A stretch of DNA of 64,000 nucleotides, from NCBI RefSeq assembly GCF_006517235.1, contig NZ_CP041188.1, positions 1,364,001 through 1,428,000 on the forward strand. Reading direction: 5' to 3'. The stretch is from Pseudarthrobacter sp. NIBRBAC000502772. Its GTDB lineage: Bacteria > Actinomycetota > Actinomycetes > Actinomycetales > Micrococcaceae. The position numbers were made by a program, and so were the translations under genes. Below the pieces are notes generated by a model. That model was not told where the DNA came from and ran no database searches. It saw nothing but the letters and a program-made list of their open reading frames with translations. Below are positions 9,777 through 44,971 of the stretch, one piece after another (the first letter of the stretch is position 1; the number at the start of each line of letters is the position of its first letter).

Positions 9777-9829
9777 GCGCGAACGGACACTTGGGCCCCG
9801 GTTCCTGGGCCCCAAGTGTCCGTTCGCGC
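9777..9829. terminator. Long palindrome between convergent genes (probable bidirectional terminator)
   Basis: Arms 9777-9795 and 9811-9829 are perfect 19-bp reverse complements (GCGCGAACGGACACTTGGG), with a further CCC/GGG pair inside the loop. There is no clear T-run. It lies between the stop codons of the exporter (+) and serC (-). Confidence 0.65.
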
Positions 9830-12083: not shown

Positions 12084-12303
12084 GAGCTCTGCCAGCGGAT
12101 CAGGTGCATCAGTCACCAACTGGCAGAGGCGGGGGAACCACAACCGGCAGTCGTAAGACTGCCTTGGGGTTAAGTCCGTCAGCAGCAAGCCTCTTCCAGC
12201 GAAGGATCCTCACGGGATATCTCTGCGCCAAAGTGCTTGTCACGGCGGACCGGGTCTTTGAACTCTCTGACCCGAATCCGACAGCTAACTTCGCAGGCTA
12301 CCC
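12084..12303 (+). ncRNA. c-di-AMP riboswitch (ydaO/yuaA class), copy 1
   Basis: The 377-bp gap before the M23 peptidase gene contains the conserved blocks of the ydaO-type riboswitch in order: GGCGGGGGAACC (12128-12139), TTGGGGTTAAGTCC (about 12164-12177) and CCGAATCCGACAGCTAAC followed by CGCAGGC (12272-12298). It ends about 10 nt before the ribosome-binding site. In actinobacteria this class precedes wall hydrolase and resuscitation factor genes and turns expression down when c-di-AMP is high. Edges are approximate. Confidence 0.9.
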
Positions 12304-12317
12304 AGAGAGGAACATTC

Positions 12318-13269: not shown

Positions 13270-13443
13270 TAGCTCTGCCACCGCTCAAGGTCCGTTCGCA
13301 TGACATCGTCTGGCAGGGGCGGGGGAACCAATTTTGGTCTTCGATTCTGAAGGCCTTGGGGTTAAGTCGCAAAGCTTCCACTGTGAAGCAGCGCGGCCGG
13401 GTGACTCCCATCCGAATCCGACAGCTCACCTCGCAGGCATTGG
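13270..13443 (+). ncRNA. c-di-AMP riboswitch (ydaO/yuaA class), copy 2
   Basis: The 315-bp gap before the first NlpC/P60 gene repeats the conserved blocks of copy 1: AGCTCTGCCA (13271-13280), GGCGGGGGAACC (about 13318-13329), TTGGGGTTAAGTC (about 13355-13368) and CCGAATCCGACAGCTCAC then CGCAGGC (13412-13438). The linker stems differ in sequence from copy 1, as expected of a maintained structure rather than a recent duplication. Confidence 0.9.
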
Positions 13444-13457
13444 GAGAGGCTACCTTC

Positions 13458-22558: not shown

Positions 22559-22563
22559 CACCC

Positions 22564-22623
22564 ATCGACTGCTCCGTAGGGGCCGTTTTGCAGGCTCAAA
22601 AGGGCCGTTACGGAGCACTCGAT
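22564..22623. terminator. Long imperfect palindrome after the alpha-mannosidase gene
   Basis: Arms 22564-22589 and 22598-22623 pair over 22 of 26 positions (ATCGA...GCTCCGTA...GGCC...TTTT), with an 8-nt loop. It starts 6 nt after the mannosidase stop. The rest of the 263-bp gap to the convergent gene contains only short GC-rich inverted repeats. Confidence 0.6.
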
Positions 22624-22808
22624 GATGGTTGGCGGGACCTGGCCGTTAAATGGCTGAGTGGGGGCGGTCCCCAACGGCCCGCCACCACTCATCCCCCCAA
22701 AGTATGCAAAGACTCAACGGGCCCGGCGTCCAGGAATCTATCCCCGTTCGCGAACACCGGCACCCAACTTCACACATTCATGATTGTGCCATGTCTAATG
22801 ATTTTGTG

Positions 22809-40557: not shown

Positions 40558-41460
40558 ATGTCTATCTATCTGAACAAGGACTCCAAGGTCATCGTCCAGG
40601 GCATCACCGGCGGCGAAGGCACCAAGCACACCGCCCTGATGCTGAAGGCCGGCACCAACATTGTTGGTGGCGTCAACGCCCGTAAGGCCGGCACCACGGT
40701 CCTGCACGGCGACACCGAGATCAACGTTTTTGGCACCGTCAAGGAAGCCATTGCCGAAACCGGCGCCGACGTCTCCATCGTCTTTGTCCCGCCGGCATTC
40801 ACCAAGAACGCCGTGGTTGAAGCCATCGAGGCAGGCATCGGCCTGGTCGTTGTCATCACCGAAGGCGTGCCCGTCCAGGACTCCGCCGAGTTCTGGGCAC
40901 TGGCCCAGTCCACGGTTGACGCCGACGGCAAGCAGGTCACCCGCATCATCGGGCCGAACTGCCCCGGCATCATCACCCCCGGCGAAGCGCTGGTTGGCAT
41001 CACGCCGAACAACATCACGGGCAAGGGCCCCATCGGCCTGGTTTCCAAGTCCGGAACCCTGACCTACCAGATGATGTACGAACTGCGCGACCTGGGCTTC
41101 TCCACCGCCATCGGCATCGGCGGCGACCCCGTCATCGGTACCACGCACATCGACGCCCTGGCCGCGTTCGAGGCTGACCCGGAGACCAAGGCGATCGTGA
41201 TGATCGGCGAAATCGGTGGCGACGCCGAAGAACGTGCTGCCGACTACATCAAGGCACACGTCACCAAGCCGGTTGTTGGCTACGTTGCCGGCTTCACCGC
41301 TCCCGAAGGCAAGACCATGGGCCACGCCGGCGCCATCGTCTCCGGTTCCGCCGGAACCGCCCAGGCCAAGAAGGAAGCCCTCGAGGCTGCCGGCGTGAAG
41401 GTCGGCAAGACGCCGTCCGAGACCGCCAAGCTGCTGCGCGAAGTCTACGCAGCGCTCTAG
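40558..41460 (+). CDS. sucD: Succinyl-CoA synthetase alpha subunit
   Basis: A 300-residue CoA-binding subunit with the phospho-histidine H256 in [10 protein letters not shown]. It opens with [20 protein letters not shown], has [10 protein letters not shown], the ligase fold [12 protein letters not shown] and [10 protein letters not shown]. It forms the alpha-beta complex with SucC. An 11-nt spacing from sucC indicates an operon. Two long palindromes lie between its stop and the convergent MarR gene. Confidence 0.96.
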
Positions 41461-41473
41461 TAGGTCAGTAAGT

Positions 41474-41538
41474 ACAACGCGGGGTCACTCCCTGCCCGTT
41501 CCAGAGGTTGGATCGGGCACGGAGTGACCCCGCGTTGT
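41474..41538. terminator. Long palindrome after sucD
   Basis: Arms 41474-41498 and 41514-41538 pair over 24 of 25 positions around a 15-nt loop, ending in TTGTTTGTTT. It starts 13 nt after the sucD stop and looks like the operon's terminator. Confidence 0.75.
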
Positions 41539-41560
41539 TTGTTTAAGCGCGTTTTTGGTT

Positions 41561-41617
41561 AAGTACGACGGCGGACGGTCACCTTCTCCTGGAAGGTGAC
41601 CGTCCGCCGTCGTACTT
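41561..41617. repeat. Palindromic element A, copy 1 (25-bp perfect arms)
   Basis: Arms 41561-41585 and 41593-41617 are perfect reverse complements around the loop CTCCTGG. It ends just before the MarR stop. A second copy with matching changes in both arms is at 44417-44475. Confidence 0.85.
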
Positions 41618-41620
41618 GAA

Positions 41621-42070
41621 CTAGGCGTTCGCGTGGAGCCGGGGGAGTGCGTCCACCAGCGCGGCCAGCTCGGGAATCGCCTGGGCCTCGGCCAGGGCGC
41701 GCTCCAGCGTGGCGTCATGGACGGGCCGGGTTTCCTCCAGCAGGGCGATGCCGCTGGGCGTGAGCTCGGTGTAGATCCCGCGGCGGTCGTCCGCGCAGAG
41801 GATCCGGGTCAGCAGGGCCCGGTCCTCAAGCCGGTTGACCAGCCGGGTGGTGGCGCTGGCGCTGAGCGCGGTGGCTCGGGCGAGCTGCTGCATGCGCATG
41901 TGCCAGCCGTCCTGGCGGCTGAGCGCATCCAGCACGGTGTACTCCACCACTGACAGCTTTGATTCGGCCTGCAGGGAGCGTTCCAGCTCGCCCTCGATCA
42001 GGCCGTGCAGCGCCGCGAGCGTGCGCCAGCCCTGTGCCCGGACCTCCACGGCGTCGTCCTTGATGCCCAT
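41621..42070 (-). CDS. MarR-family transcriptional regulator
   Basis: A 149-residue winged-helix regulator: RVEAQGW- and LAALHGLIEGELER-like dimer helices, then LSVVEYTVLDALSRQ, a recognition region (QQLARATALSASATTRLVNR) and the wing (RILCADDRRGIYTELT). MarR proteins respond to small phenolic or electrophilic ligands. It is divergent from the MFS gene, and the shared 169-bp gap has inverted repeats suited to a MarR dimer, so it probably represses that transporter and the following reductase. Clear ribosome site (GAGGAAAG) on the minus strand. Confidence 0.9.
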   Translation of the reverse strand: MGIKDDAVEVRAQGWRTLAALHGLIEGELERSLQAESKLSVVEYTVLDALSRQDGWHMRMQQLARATALSASATTRLVNRLEDRALLTRILCADDRRGIYTELTPSGIALLEETRPVHDATLERALAEAQAIPELAALVDALPRLHANA

Positions 42071-42132
42071 CTGTCTTTCCTCTCGCGGGTGCTCCGGCCG
42101 CCTGGCGGCGAAAGGCGGAGCACAATCGATAA

Positions 42133-42188
42133 TAGTTGCTTGCGCGGCGTATCTGCTTGTGCAACAATAAATAACGCGTCTGCAACTA
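42133..42188. promoter_or_regulatory. Candidate MarR operator region
   Basis: An inverted repeat TTGT-GCA-ACAA (42157-42167) lies inside a wider pair TAGTTGC (42133-42139) and GCAACTA (42182-42188), in the gap between the divergent MarR and MFS genes. Suggestive of cooperative sites. Confidence 0.45.
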
Positions 42189-42239
42189 CTAGCTTACGCG
42201 TCCTATCTCATTCCGTACAGTTTTCAAAGGAGCATCCCC

Positions 42240-43460
42240 ATGCCCATTGGCCTGATAGCCCTCGCCCTCGGCGGGTTCGGCATCGGACTCACCGAGTTCG
42301 TGATCATGGGCCTGCTGCCCGAGGTTGCCGCCGACTTCCAGGTCAGCGAGGCCACGGCAGGCTGGCTGATCTCCGGATATGCCCTGGCCGTGGTGGTCGG
42401 CGCATTGGTGCTGACCGCGGCGGTGACCGGCTTCGAACGCAAGCCCGTCCTCGCTGTTCTGCTGGTGCTGTTCATCGCCGGCAACCTGGTCTCCGCCATC
42501 GCTCCCGATTACGGAATGATGATGATCGGCCGGGTCATCGCCGCCCTGGCGCACGGTGCGTTCTTCGGGATCGGAGCCGTGGTGGCCGCTGACATGGTTG
42601 CCCCCACCAAAAAGGCCGGCGCCATCGCCATCATGTTCACCGGGCTCACCGCAGCCAACGTCCTGGGCGTGCCGTTCGGCACCATGCTGGGACAGGCCGC
42701 GGGCTGGCGCTCTACGTTCTGGGCCATCACCGTCATCGGGGTCATCGCCCTGGCGGGAATCCTGGCGCTCGTTCCGAAGACCGGCCATGGCGACACCACG
42801 CCCGGAACCCTGCGCGGCGAACTGCGCGCCTTCCGCTCCGGGCAGGTGTGGCTCTCCATCCTGGTCACCATCCTCGGCTACGGCGGGATGTTCGGCGCCT
42901 TCACCTACATCGCCTTCACGCTCACCGAGGTCTCCGGCTTCGCGGCCTCCACCGTTCCGTGGCTGCTGATCGTCTTCGGCGTAGGCCTCTTTATCGGCAA
43001 CACCATCGGCGGCAAGGCTGCGGACCGCAATGTGGACCGCACGCTCGTGGTGGTGCTCTCCGTGCTGGTGGTGGTGCTCGTCGGTTTTGCCCTGACCGCC
43101 GGCAACCAGGTGCTCACCGTTGCGTCCATCGTCCTGATGGGCGGCTTCGGATTCGCCACCGTGCCGGGACTGCAGATGCGCGTGATGAAGTACGCCTCCA
43201 GCGCCCCCACCCTCGCGTCCGGCGCCAACATCGGTGCCTTCAACGTGGGCAACGCCCTCGGCGCCTGGCTCGGGGGAGTGACCATCACCGCGGGACTCGG
43301 CTACACCTCGCCCATCTGGGCCGGCGCCGGCATCACCCTGCTGGGGCTCGTGGTGATGATCATCGCCGCCGCCGGAGCCAAGCGGGCCGTCCGGCAGGCC
43401 TCCGCCAACGCCGGTCCCGGCGGACGTGTGGCCGCCGAACCTGTAGCCGTCCTCCACTGA
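42240..43460 (+). CDS. MFS transporter (AraJ/DHA1-like)
   Basis: A 406-residue, 12-segment transporter of the drug:H+ antiporter-1 type. It begins IALALGGFGIGLTEFVIMGL, with GRVIAALAHGAFFGIGA and AANVLGVPFGTMLGQ as family signatures, like AraJ/YdhP-type efflux proteins. Substrate unknown. A GGAG ribosome site lies upstream. It is followed after 40 nt by an aldo-keto reductase, and the MarR gene is divergent, so the three form an apparent stress or aldehyde-response unit. Confidence 0.9.
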   Translation: MPIGLIALALGGFGIGLTEFVIMGLLPEVAADFQVSEATAGWLISGYALAVVVGALVLTAAVTGFERKPVLAVLLVLFIAGNLVSAIAPDYGMMMIGRVIAALAHGAFFGIGAVVAADMVAPTKKAGAIAIMFTGLTAANVLGVPFGTMLGQAAGWRSTFWAITVIGVIALAGILALVPKTGHGDTTPGTLRGELRAFRSGQVWLSILVTILGYGGMFGAFTYIAFTLTEVSGFAASTVPWLLIVFGVGLFIGNTIGGKAADRNVDRTLVVVLSVLVVVLVGFALTAGNQVLTVASIVLMGGFGFATVPGLQMRVMKYASSAPTLASGANIGAFNVGNALGAWLGGVTITAGLGYTSPIWAGAGITLLGLVVMIIAAAGAKRAVRQASANAGPGGRVAAEPVAVLH

Positions 43461-43500
43461 GCCTTCAAACCCCGATCCTCAACCTGCAACAGGAGAACCC

Positions 43501-44346
43501 ATGACTTCCACCCCCATCACCACGTCCATCCCGGAGATCACCCTCAACAACGGCGTGCGGATGCCGCAGCTGGGGTTCGGCGTCTTCCAGGTGTCCGACG
43601 ACGACACCACCGCCGCGGTCAGCCACGCCCTCGCAGCCGGCTACCGGAGCATCGACACCGCCGCCATTTACGGCAATGAGGCGGGTACCGGACGTGCCAT
43701 GGCCGAGTCCGGCATCGACCGCGAAGAGCTGTTCATTACGTCCAAACTGTGGGTGGCCGACCTCGGCTACGACGCCACGCTGGCCGCGTTCGAGGCCAGC
43801 CTGGACAAGCTGGGACTGGACTACCTGGACCTCTACCTCATCCACTGGCCGGCGCCGGCAACCAACCTGTACCTCGAGTCCTGGCGGGCGCTGGAGCACC
43901 TGCTGGCCAGCGGCAAGGCACGGGCCATCGGCGTCTCCAACTTCCTCCCCGAGCACCTGCAGAAGGTCATTGACCTGGGCGGCACGGTCCCGGCCATTAA
44001 CCAGATTGAGCTCCACCCGGCCCTGCAACAGCGGGACATTGCAGACTTCAATGCCGCACACGGGATCGCCACGGAGGCCTGGAGCCCGCTCGCGCAGGGT
44101 GCCGTGCTGGCAGATCCGGCCGTTGTGGACATCGCGGCACGGCATGATGTGAGCCCGGCGCAGGCCATTCTTCGCTGGCACCTGCAGCAGGGCCGGATCA
44201 TCATCCCCAAGTCCGTCACCCCGCAACGGATCCGGGAAAACCTGGACGTCTTCGGCTTCGACCTGACGGCCGACGAACTCACTGTCATCGACGGCCTGGA
44301 GCGGGACGGCCGCACCGGTCCGCACCCGGCGGAGTTCAACGGCTAG
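43501..44346 (+). CDS. Aldo/keto reductase
   Basis: A 281-residue NADPH-dependent reductase of the AKR5-like group. The catalytic tetrad is visible: D52 and Y57 (SIDTAAIYGNE), K82 (ITSKLW) and H115 (YLIHWPAPA). KSVTPQRIRENLDVF is the cofactor-phosphate region. These enzymes reduce aldehydes, ketones or 2,5-diketo-gluconate; the substrate is not known. A CAACAGGAG ribosome site is present. It ends before a set of intergenic repeats. Confidence 0.92.
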   Translation: MTSTPITTSIPEITLNNGVRMPQLGFGVFQVSDDDTTAAVSHALAAGYRSIDTAAIYGNEAGTGRAMAESGIDREELFITSKLWVADLGYDATLAAFEASLDKLGLDYLDLYLIHWPAPATNLYLESWRALEHLLASGKARAIGVSNFLPEHLQKVIDLGGTVPAINQIELHPALQQRDIADFNAAHGIATEAWSPLAQGAVLADPAVVDIAARHDVSPAQAILRWHLQQGRIIIPKSVTPQRIRENLDVFGFDLTADELTVIDGLERDGRTGPHPAEFNG

Positions 44347-44360
44347 GAAAAGCCCACCCT

Positions 44361-44418
44361 CGGGTCTCGACGGGCTCGACCACCGGAGCAGCGACGGGTC
44401 TCGACGGGCTTGACCACG
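44361..44418 (+). repeat. Tandem GGTCTCGACGGGCTYGACCAC repeat
   Basis: GGGTCTCGACGGGCT-GACCAC occurs at about 44362-44382 and 44396-44416, 34 bp apart, one base different. Motifs of this type are common between genes in Arthrobacter and relatives. They run directly into palindromic element A copy 2. Confidence 0.6.
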
Positions 44419-44475
44419 AGTACGACGGCGGCCGGTTACCTTCTCCAGGAAGGTAACCGGCCGCCGTCGTACTCG
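44417..44475. repeat. Palindromic element A, copy 2 (26-bp perfect arms)
   Basis: Arms 44417-44442 and 44450-44475 are perfect reverse complements around the loop CTCCAGG. Compared with 41561-41617, base changes in the left arm are matched in the right arm, so the stem is conserved. Confidence 0.85.
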
Positions 44476-44488
44476 TTTAAGGGCTGTT

Positions 44489-44971
44489 CTAGACCTTGGC
44501 GCCGCTGAGCAGTTCGTCGAGCCGCTCGTAGCCCTCGGTCATGCCGCCTTCCATGCCGGACTGCGCCATGCCGTCGCGGGCCTCCTGGGTGGGATAGACG
44601 GAGTGGCCCCGGACGCGGGACCGGCCGTTGCCGAGGTCCTCGAAGGTCAGGAACTCGATGCTGACCACGTCGGGGTAGCCGCCGAATTCGAAGGTCTGGA
44701 TGGCAAATTCGTTCTCGCGGACGGTGTGATAAACGCCGCTGAATTCGTAGGCGACGCCGTCGGGCCCGGTGTGCAGGTAGCTGTAGCTGCCGCCGGTGCG
44801 GAAATCGAAGTGGTTGATTTCCATCTTCATGCCACGCGGGCCGAGCCACTGGACGATGAGGTCCGGGTCCTTGTGAGCGCGGAAGACGTCCGCCACCGGG
44901 AAGTCGAACTCCCGCTCGAAGTCGATGAAGGGGAGTCCTTCAGGAATAGTGAGGTTCAGCGGATTGCTCAT
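44489..44971 (-). CDS. SRPBCC/AHSA1-family protein
   Basis: A 160-residue START-like protein: FEREFDFPVADVFRAHKDPDLIVQWLGP, then MEINHFDFRTGGSY, and TFEDLGNGRSRV near the end, the pattern of the AHSA1 (Aha1 C-terminal-like) family. Such proteins bind small hydrophobic ligands. It overlaps the ArsR-type gene upstream by 4 nt. AHSA1-ArsR pairs are very common, and the regulator typically controls both. Confidence 0.88.
   Translation of the reverse strand: MSNPLNLTIPEGLPFIDFEREFDFPVADVFRAHKDPDLIVQWLGPRGMKMEINHFDFRTGGSYSYLHTGPDGVAYEFSGVYHTVRENEFAIQTFEFGGYPDVVSIEFLTFEDLGNGRSRVRGHSVYPTQEARDGMAQSGMEGGMTEGYERLDELLSGAKV

Follow-up and report, generated by a model that had tools for sequence, protein, structure and literature searches.

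A palindrome family with a fixed foot at convergent gene ends in Pseudarthrobacter: probable bidirectional, U-tract-poor transcription terminators

Two perfect palindromes, here called B1 and B2, in a 64,000-nt stretch of the genome of Pseudarthrobacter sp. NIBRBAC000502772 (the window) are most likely bidirectional, U-tract-poor transcription terminators belonging to one old sequence family, family B. The location of the palindromes, their pairing, the covariation between their arms, their inheritance at the same gene pairs, and the spread of the family through the bacterial order were observed; from these observations we infer termination itself. The ending of transcripts without U-tracts in high-GC Actinobacteria is not well settled, and family B offers a specific candidate signal open to mutational study, as well as a way to mark where operons end in high-GC actinobacterial genomes.

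Anatomy and setting of B1 and B2

The arms of B1 and of B2 are 100% complementary, both loops are 5 nt long, and the two elements are 91% identical across 55 nt (Table 1). The first-pass annotation had described two perfect palindromes in convergent gaps with compensatory changes in both arms, and this description is borne out: the within-arm differences between B1 and B2 are matched pairs—A..T in one against C..G in the other following the foot, and GTCACC/GGTGAC versus GTTACC/GGTAAC—and the elements occupy the convergent gaps between sucD and the MarR gene (160 nt) and between the aldo/keto reductase (AKR) and AHSA1/SRPBCC genes (142 nt). Of the dimensions given there, the perfect arms stand, but the 7-nt loops do not, a closing pair having been missed, and B2, placed at 44417–44475, is one base longer at each end. 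RNA folding gave z-scores of −10.1 to −11.9 for the two elements on both strands, with 0 of 200 shuffles equally stable.

Table 1. Window positions of the two family B palindromes, the accompanying family A palindrome, and the surrounding genes.
Feature	Position	Strand	Remarks
sucD, succinyl-CoA ligase alpha subunit	40558..41460	+	left neighbour
Family A palindrome	41474..41538	.	CAACGCGGGGTCACT foot; shares the sucD/MarR gap with B1; commonly accompanies B downstream of sucD in congeners
B1 palindrome (family B)	41561..41617	.	26-bp arms; loop TCCTG; separated by 3 nt from the stop of the convergent MarR gene
MarR-family regulator	41621..42070	-	first cassette gene between B1 and B2
MFS transporter	42240..43460	+	cassette
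Aldo/keto reductase (AKR)	43501..44346	+	cassette
B2 palindrome (family B)	44416..44476	.	28-bp arms; loop TCCAG; between the AKR and SRPBCC genes
AHSA1/SRPBCC-domain gene	44489..44971	-	right neighbour

Other elements were noted in the window. A direct repeat, CGGGTCTCGACGGGCTCGACCAC, is present in two copies at 44361–44417, adjoining B2, and one strand carries two c-di-AMP riboswitches spaced by about 1.2 kb (12095–12314 and 13291–13453).

Family B in the host genome

In family B, the foot (ACGACGGCGG...CCGCCGTCGT) is paired and fixed in sequence; the upper stem is paired too but free in sequence. When the genome, a single contig of 4.80 Mb, was searched for the foot pair CGACGGCGG...CCGCCGTCG at a spacing of 8–38 nt, 48 matches were obtained, compared with 1 for the backward control, so that B1 and B2 are not the only members. 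Under a symmetric-pairing rule, 22 interiors qualified as paired, 3 of these being only 8 nt long; 19 of the 48 have at least 6 pairs, and a few others are partly paired. Because the foot word is common in genes, many of the remaining foot pairs look like coding background. Upper stems vary from close matches to GGTCACCTT through to entirely different sequences.

In 11 aligned genome copies, changes on both sides were found at 14 of 26 pairs, and the covariation score was 0.343, compared with 0.125 in shuffles, none of 500 of which scored as high. Pairing was kept in 92.2% of cells, whereas slid controls gave 31–60%; where copies differ, pairing is thus mostly preserved. On the preferred reading, the matched arm changes would come from selection that keeps the stem paired in both directions. 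Stem pairing alone, however, does not explain the fixed foot. Since the foot is kept while the top changes, the family constitutes a natural experiment in which parts read as sequence and parts read as structure can be separated.

The first-pass annotation had attributed the matched changes either to selection on pairing or to palindrome-preserving events. Selection fits; palindrome-preserving events are not needed, because one-sided changes occur in orthologues, for example in the B2 orthologues of two congeners (L230 and L231). Such one-sided changes fit selection acting on ordinary mutations, with no copying mechanism required, and palindrome-preserving copying is a possible contributor.

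Location relative to genes

Locations were determined in an 864-kb sample comprising the window and host-genome stretches, 20 picked for holding copies and 20 spread over the genome regardless of copies, with genes called by a custom codon-model script rather than a published caller. Among 120 strong hairpins of any sequence, 56 occupied convergent gaps, 45 tandem gaps, and 3 divergent gaps; another 12 fell inside genes, and 4 lay at the ends of stretches. Divergent gaps hold fewer hairpins despite contributing more intergenic bases than convergent gaps (36.2 versus 20.4 kb). Hairpins in tandem gaps lie closer to the upstream stop in 33 of 45 cases (medians 31 and 138 nt). In the unselected 464 kb—the window and the 20 spread stretches—24 hairpins were convergent, 19 tandem, and 1 divergent, with 6 in genes and 2 at ends; family B accounts for 6 of these 24 convergent hairpins, B1 and B2 included. 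With a looser finder, hairpins were present in 97 of 140 convergent gaps, 104 of 349 tandem gaps, 23 of 149 divergent gaps, and 85 of 988 in-gene windows.

Exact foot words show a similar arrangement. In sampled intergenic DNA, 65 of 85 were paired (46 in convergent gaps, 19 in tandem gaps, and none in divergent gaps), and 3 of the 20 unpaired words were in divergent gaps. Inside genes, a partner within 70 nt was found for 2 of 104.

Two further families of repeated gene-end palindromes, GCGCGAACGGACACTT (family C) and ATCGATTGCTCCGTA (family D), were seen in the window, at 9777–9829 and 22563–22624, and at other host-genome stretches (L046, L052, L061, and L110).

The gap following sucD across the genus

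Across the genus, SucD was detected in 99 of 101 genomes, and the gap following it was examined in 70 (30 loci and 40 longer stretches). The first 240 nt after sucD in these 70 loci contain 79 hairpins scoring at least 12 when no foot is required: 37 belong to family A, 37 to family B on both sides, 1 to family B on one side, 2 to family C, and 2 to none of these. Where A and B are both present, A comes before B. When the gene beyond the gap is convergent, family B was found in 27 of 36 cases; when it is co-directional, in 12 of 33 (p = 0.0016, without correction for phylogeny and with one gap lacking a gene call excluded). In 13 of the 30 sucD gaps that lack a B pair by pattern, one arm word persists; 2 of these are short foot-only hairpins. 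Where the next gene is co-directional, a single B arm was often seen left alone upstream of that gene.

In 39 distinct post-sucD B elements, interior pairs 9–14 are Watson-Crick in 85.5% of cases versus 52.3% after shuffling, and doubly changed cells number 56 versus 15.7. Foot identity in this set is built in by the search pattern; the foot-independent tests are the 79 hairpins described above and the top 8-mer CGACGGCG, which, with no foot required, was found in the arms of 10 hairpins among 108 located away from the sucD gap.

The family A palindrome, AACGCGGGGTCACT...AGTGACCCCGCGTT, occurs at nine genome sites besides that in the window. All 10 matches, including those with poor pairing in the middle, are exactly 61 nt long, although 43–73 nt was allowed.

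Inheritance and the cassettes between copies

Twenty elements from two congeners, picked because many of them resembled host copies (13 of 41 in G076 and 7 of at least 44 in G020), were compared with the host. In 12 of the 20—a figure that is not a rate, given this choice—the congener copy lies at the same gene pair as the host copy and has a similar upper stem; in the other 8, one flank was unmatched or matched a non-adjacent place in the sampled host stretches. Because congener copies share gene pairs, many loci appear to have kept their own terminator, with the foot common to all.

The presence of two close copies in the window is explained by the marR-MFS-AKR cassette, which separates sucD and its terminators from the SRPBCC gene. 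The SRPBCC gene is next after sucD, on the opposite strand and within less than 500 nt, at 26 of 70 congener loci, and a marR-MFS pair lies 9.4–12.4 kb downstream of sucD at 15 of the 40 longer loci. The complete arrangement, with B1 before and B2 after the cassette, was found in the host and in three congeners (L230, L231, and L237), L237 having a further 2 kb between the A palindrome and B1. In all four, the left arm keeps ACGG in B1 and CCGG in B2. In ten congener regions beyond marR-MFS, a short B-type hairpin follows the MFS gene in 6 and is absent from 4; of these 4, 2 have an AKR gene after the MFS gene, with no hairpin just after it.

In a second case, two B copies at genome positions 1060868 and 1065095 flank an ABC-transport cassette, so named by reading the sequences, whereas two congeners have a single B between the same outer genes. 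The resemblance between these copies (1060868–1065144) apparently continues for some 20 nt beyond the palindrome. The observations are consistent with each cassette carrying a terminator of its own; the palindrome may also be a site of recombination.

Distribution beyond the genus

Within the bacterial family, host included, a strict pattern occurs in 110 of 149 genomes and 27 of 32 genera, with up to 52 sites per genome, compared with 3 control matches. When the same pattern was run on the order outside this family, 44 of 138 genomes were seen to contain 155 sites, compared with 7 control sites, and the interior is paired at 53 of 75 sites examined (2.5 expected by shuffling). Twenty sites in other families of the order, picked from the 53 paired ones, comprise 14 convergent and 6 tandem sites, all 6 of the latter being nearer to the upstream stop. 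Outside the order, 4 of 144 genomes contain one site each.

With a longer pattern, 19 stretches were retrieved, their named source genomes including Arthrobacter, Pseudarthrobacter, Specibacter, and Haematomicrobium; 17 of the 19 interiors are paired. A narrower pattern, TACGACGGCGG, was found in 2 of 198 genomes order-wide, and since it had no match in the other genera drawn from the host's family, it is too narrow for spread to be judged. Records named Sporosarcina beigongshangi (L133 and L147) carry family B palindromes at 64% GC, and the name or the assembly looks wrong.

Proposed function and alternative explanations

Bidirectional termination fits the location of family B, its pairing on two strands, its inheritance, and its lower frequency before co-directional genes. 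Each transcribed strand would fold, shortly after the stop codon, into a hairpin of 26–28 bp that halts RNA polymerase and shields the 3′ end, and neither convergent gene would then run into its opposite. Of the traits of a canonical intrinsic terminator, the GC-rich hairpin soon after the stop codon is present and the U-rich tract after the stem is absent; a simple scan for U-tract terminators detects none of the palindromes, and T content beside convergent hairpins of any family is about 2.8 per 8 nt. Because a real U-run is missing, the 3′ arm of the fixed foot, ACGACGGCGG/CCGCCGTCGT, may stand in for part of the work of the U-tract. Pairing on both strands in convergent gaps, a trait of bidirectional U-lacking terminators, is found.

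Other observations stand against this reading. In tandem gaps, mismatches read in the sense direction show no preference for G-U (48, versus 41 A-C; p = 0.53), and in post-sucD elements, read in the sense of sucD, the counts are 44 and 30 (p = 0.13). For 19 tandem B elements, the sense side shows no significant excess of downstream T (p = 0.10). With G-U and A-C equal and no significant asymmetry in downstream T, the signature of a transcribed strand is missing, and the missing G-U preference counts against a simple RNA reading of the stem. The presence of B in 12 co-directional sucD gaps also counts against terminators, as do the 8 of 20 congener copies whose flank was unmatched or non-adjacent. 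The fixed foot and the absent sense-strand G-U preference keep a sequence-read or DNA-level role open.

Such a DNA-level element—a palindrome or foot bound by protein, a cruciform, or a site of cassette recombination, with any transcription stop being secondary—would account for the fixed foot, for mismatches without strand asymmetry, and for the two cases in which copies flank a cassette that congeners lack at that position. However, the elements lie 3′ of genes and are nearly absent from divergent gaps, which fits a role at transcript ends, and cassette flanking is explicable by cassettes carrying their own terminator, as in 6 of the 10 congener regions, with 4 lacking it; a DNA-level element is therefore considered quite unlikely. 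It is likewise unlikely that termination is Rho-dependent or occurs elsewhere, with the hairpin just blocking 3′ exonucleases to give a stable 3′ end. Very stable stems lacking a U-tract suit a barrier of this kind, and U-lacking structured ends may, according to the accessible part of one report, be either I-shaped terminators or trimmed Rho-dependent ends (PMC8269248). However, gaps as short as 160 and 142 nt leave little room for termination past the hairpin before the opposing gene, and a mere barrier needs no fixed foot.

The first-pass annotation had offered paired terminators, a REP- or MITE-like mobile palindrome, and a stable RNA. Of these, paired terminators are retained, copies lying 3′ of genes and mostly in convergent gaps in the host, in congeners, and at 20 sites in the order, and the other two are not supported. 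Family B elements are repeated, short, palindromic, and intergenic, with similar copies at several places, as mobile palindromes would be, but the REP-type transposase suggested as a check (PF01797, Y1_Tnp), the RAYT expected for GTAG REPs, was not found in the host genome by a search that was positive in 5 of 14 control genomes, 12 of the 20 chosen congener copies lie at shared gene pairs with similar upper stems, the other 8 being less cleanly placed, and most copies first examined have stems of 22–28 bp. No unpaired GTAG or CGTC tag at the end of a 5–13 bp stem was seen, CGTC being within the paired stem. A REP or MITE is thus highly improbable and was set aside on the transposase search, shared positions, and anatomy. 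A known structured RNA was also rejected: no Rfam 15 family reached its gathering score at B1 or B2, the best of the sub-threshold matches being mir-3122 (35.6 bits versus 92 needed), and no sigma-70-like promoter was found in 41300–44800. Pairs of short inverted words forming terminator-like hairpins have been reported for DNA uptake words in Neisseria and Pasteurellaceae, at least in the portion of that paper available (PMC1852404), but ACGACGGCGG occurs singly in genes 102 times in the 864-kb sample, versus 85 and 74 for the one-mismatch words TCGACGGCGG and CCGACGGCGG, and is not set apart by over-representation. An uptake word was set aside on these single-word counts and is almost certainly not the explanation.

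Within the preferred reading of family B as bidirectional terminators, a speculative and rather doubtful extension is that the foot is itself the stop signal, with RNA polymerase, perhaps together with NusG or NusA, recognising CCGCCGTCGT below a long hairpin instead of a U-tract, and one palindromic copy stopping transcription in both directions throughout the order of Arthrobacter. More boldly, cassettes ending in the same palindrome might recombine there, the terminators then doubling as docking sites for gene modules.

Comparison with known systems

No description of family B-type palindromes in Arthrobacter or Micrococcaceae was found among titles, starts of abstracts, and top-ranked results, with few subscription journals covered. 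RepRanger includes palindrome counts for one Arthrobacter genome, with no such family described in the part of the paper available (PMC12306157).

In the available sections of the relevant study, GTAG and CGTC REPs have an unpaired tag and stems of 5–13 bp, and CGTC REPs have no transposase (PMC3733652). Like them, family B consists of repeated, short, intergenic palindromes, and CGTC is present in its sequence; unlike in CGTC REPs as described there, the CGTC lies inside the stem, the stems are mostly longer, and the host has no Y1_Tnp. The DUS and USS terminators of Neisseria and Pasteurellaceae, in the accessible part of their description, share with family B a conserved short inverted word, hairpins, and enrichment in tail-to-tail gaps (PMC1852404). 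Uptake words number 1,471 to 1,965 per genome among the rows listed there, whereas single words of family B are not enriched over similar words.

Term-seq in Streptomyces clavuligerus has revealed U-lacking (I-shaped) and bidirectional terminators in GC-rich Actinobacteria (PMC8269248). The available part of that report describes neither a fixed foot nor a shared sequence family, and for family B termination is a proposed function. Both sets are long, stable gene-end hairpins with a weak U-tract or none, some of those in S. clavuligerus acting on both strands. Because family B is missed by a U-tract terminator scan, it would by analogy resemble the U-lacking structured ends of Streptomyces, as these are presented in the same part of the report.
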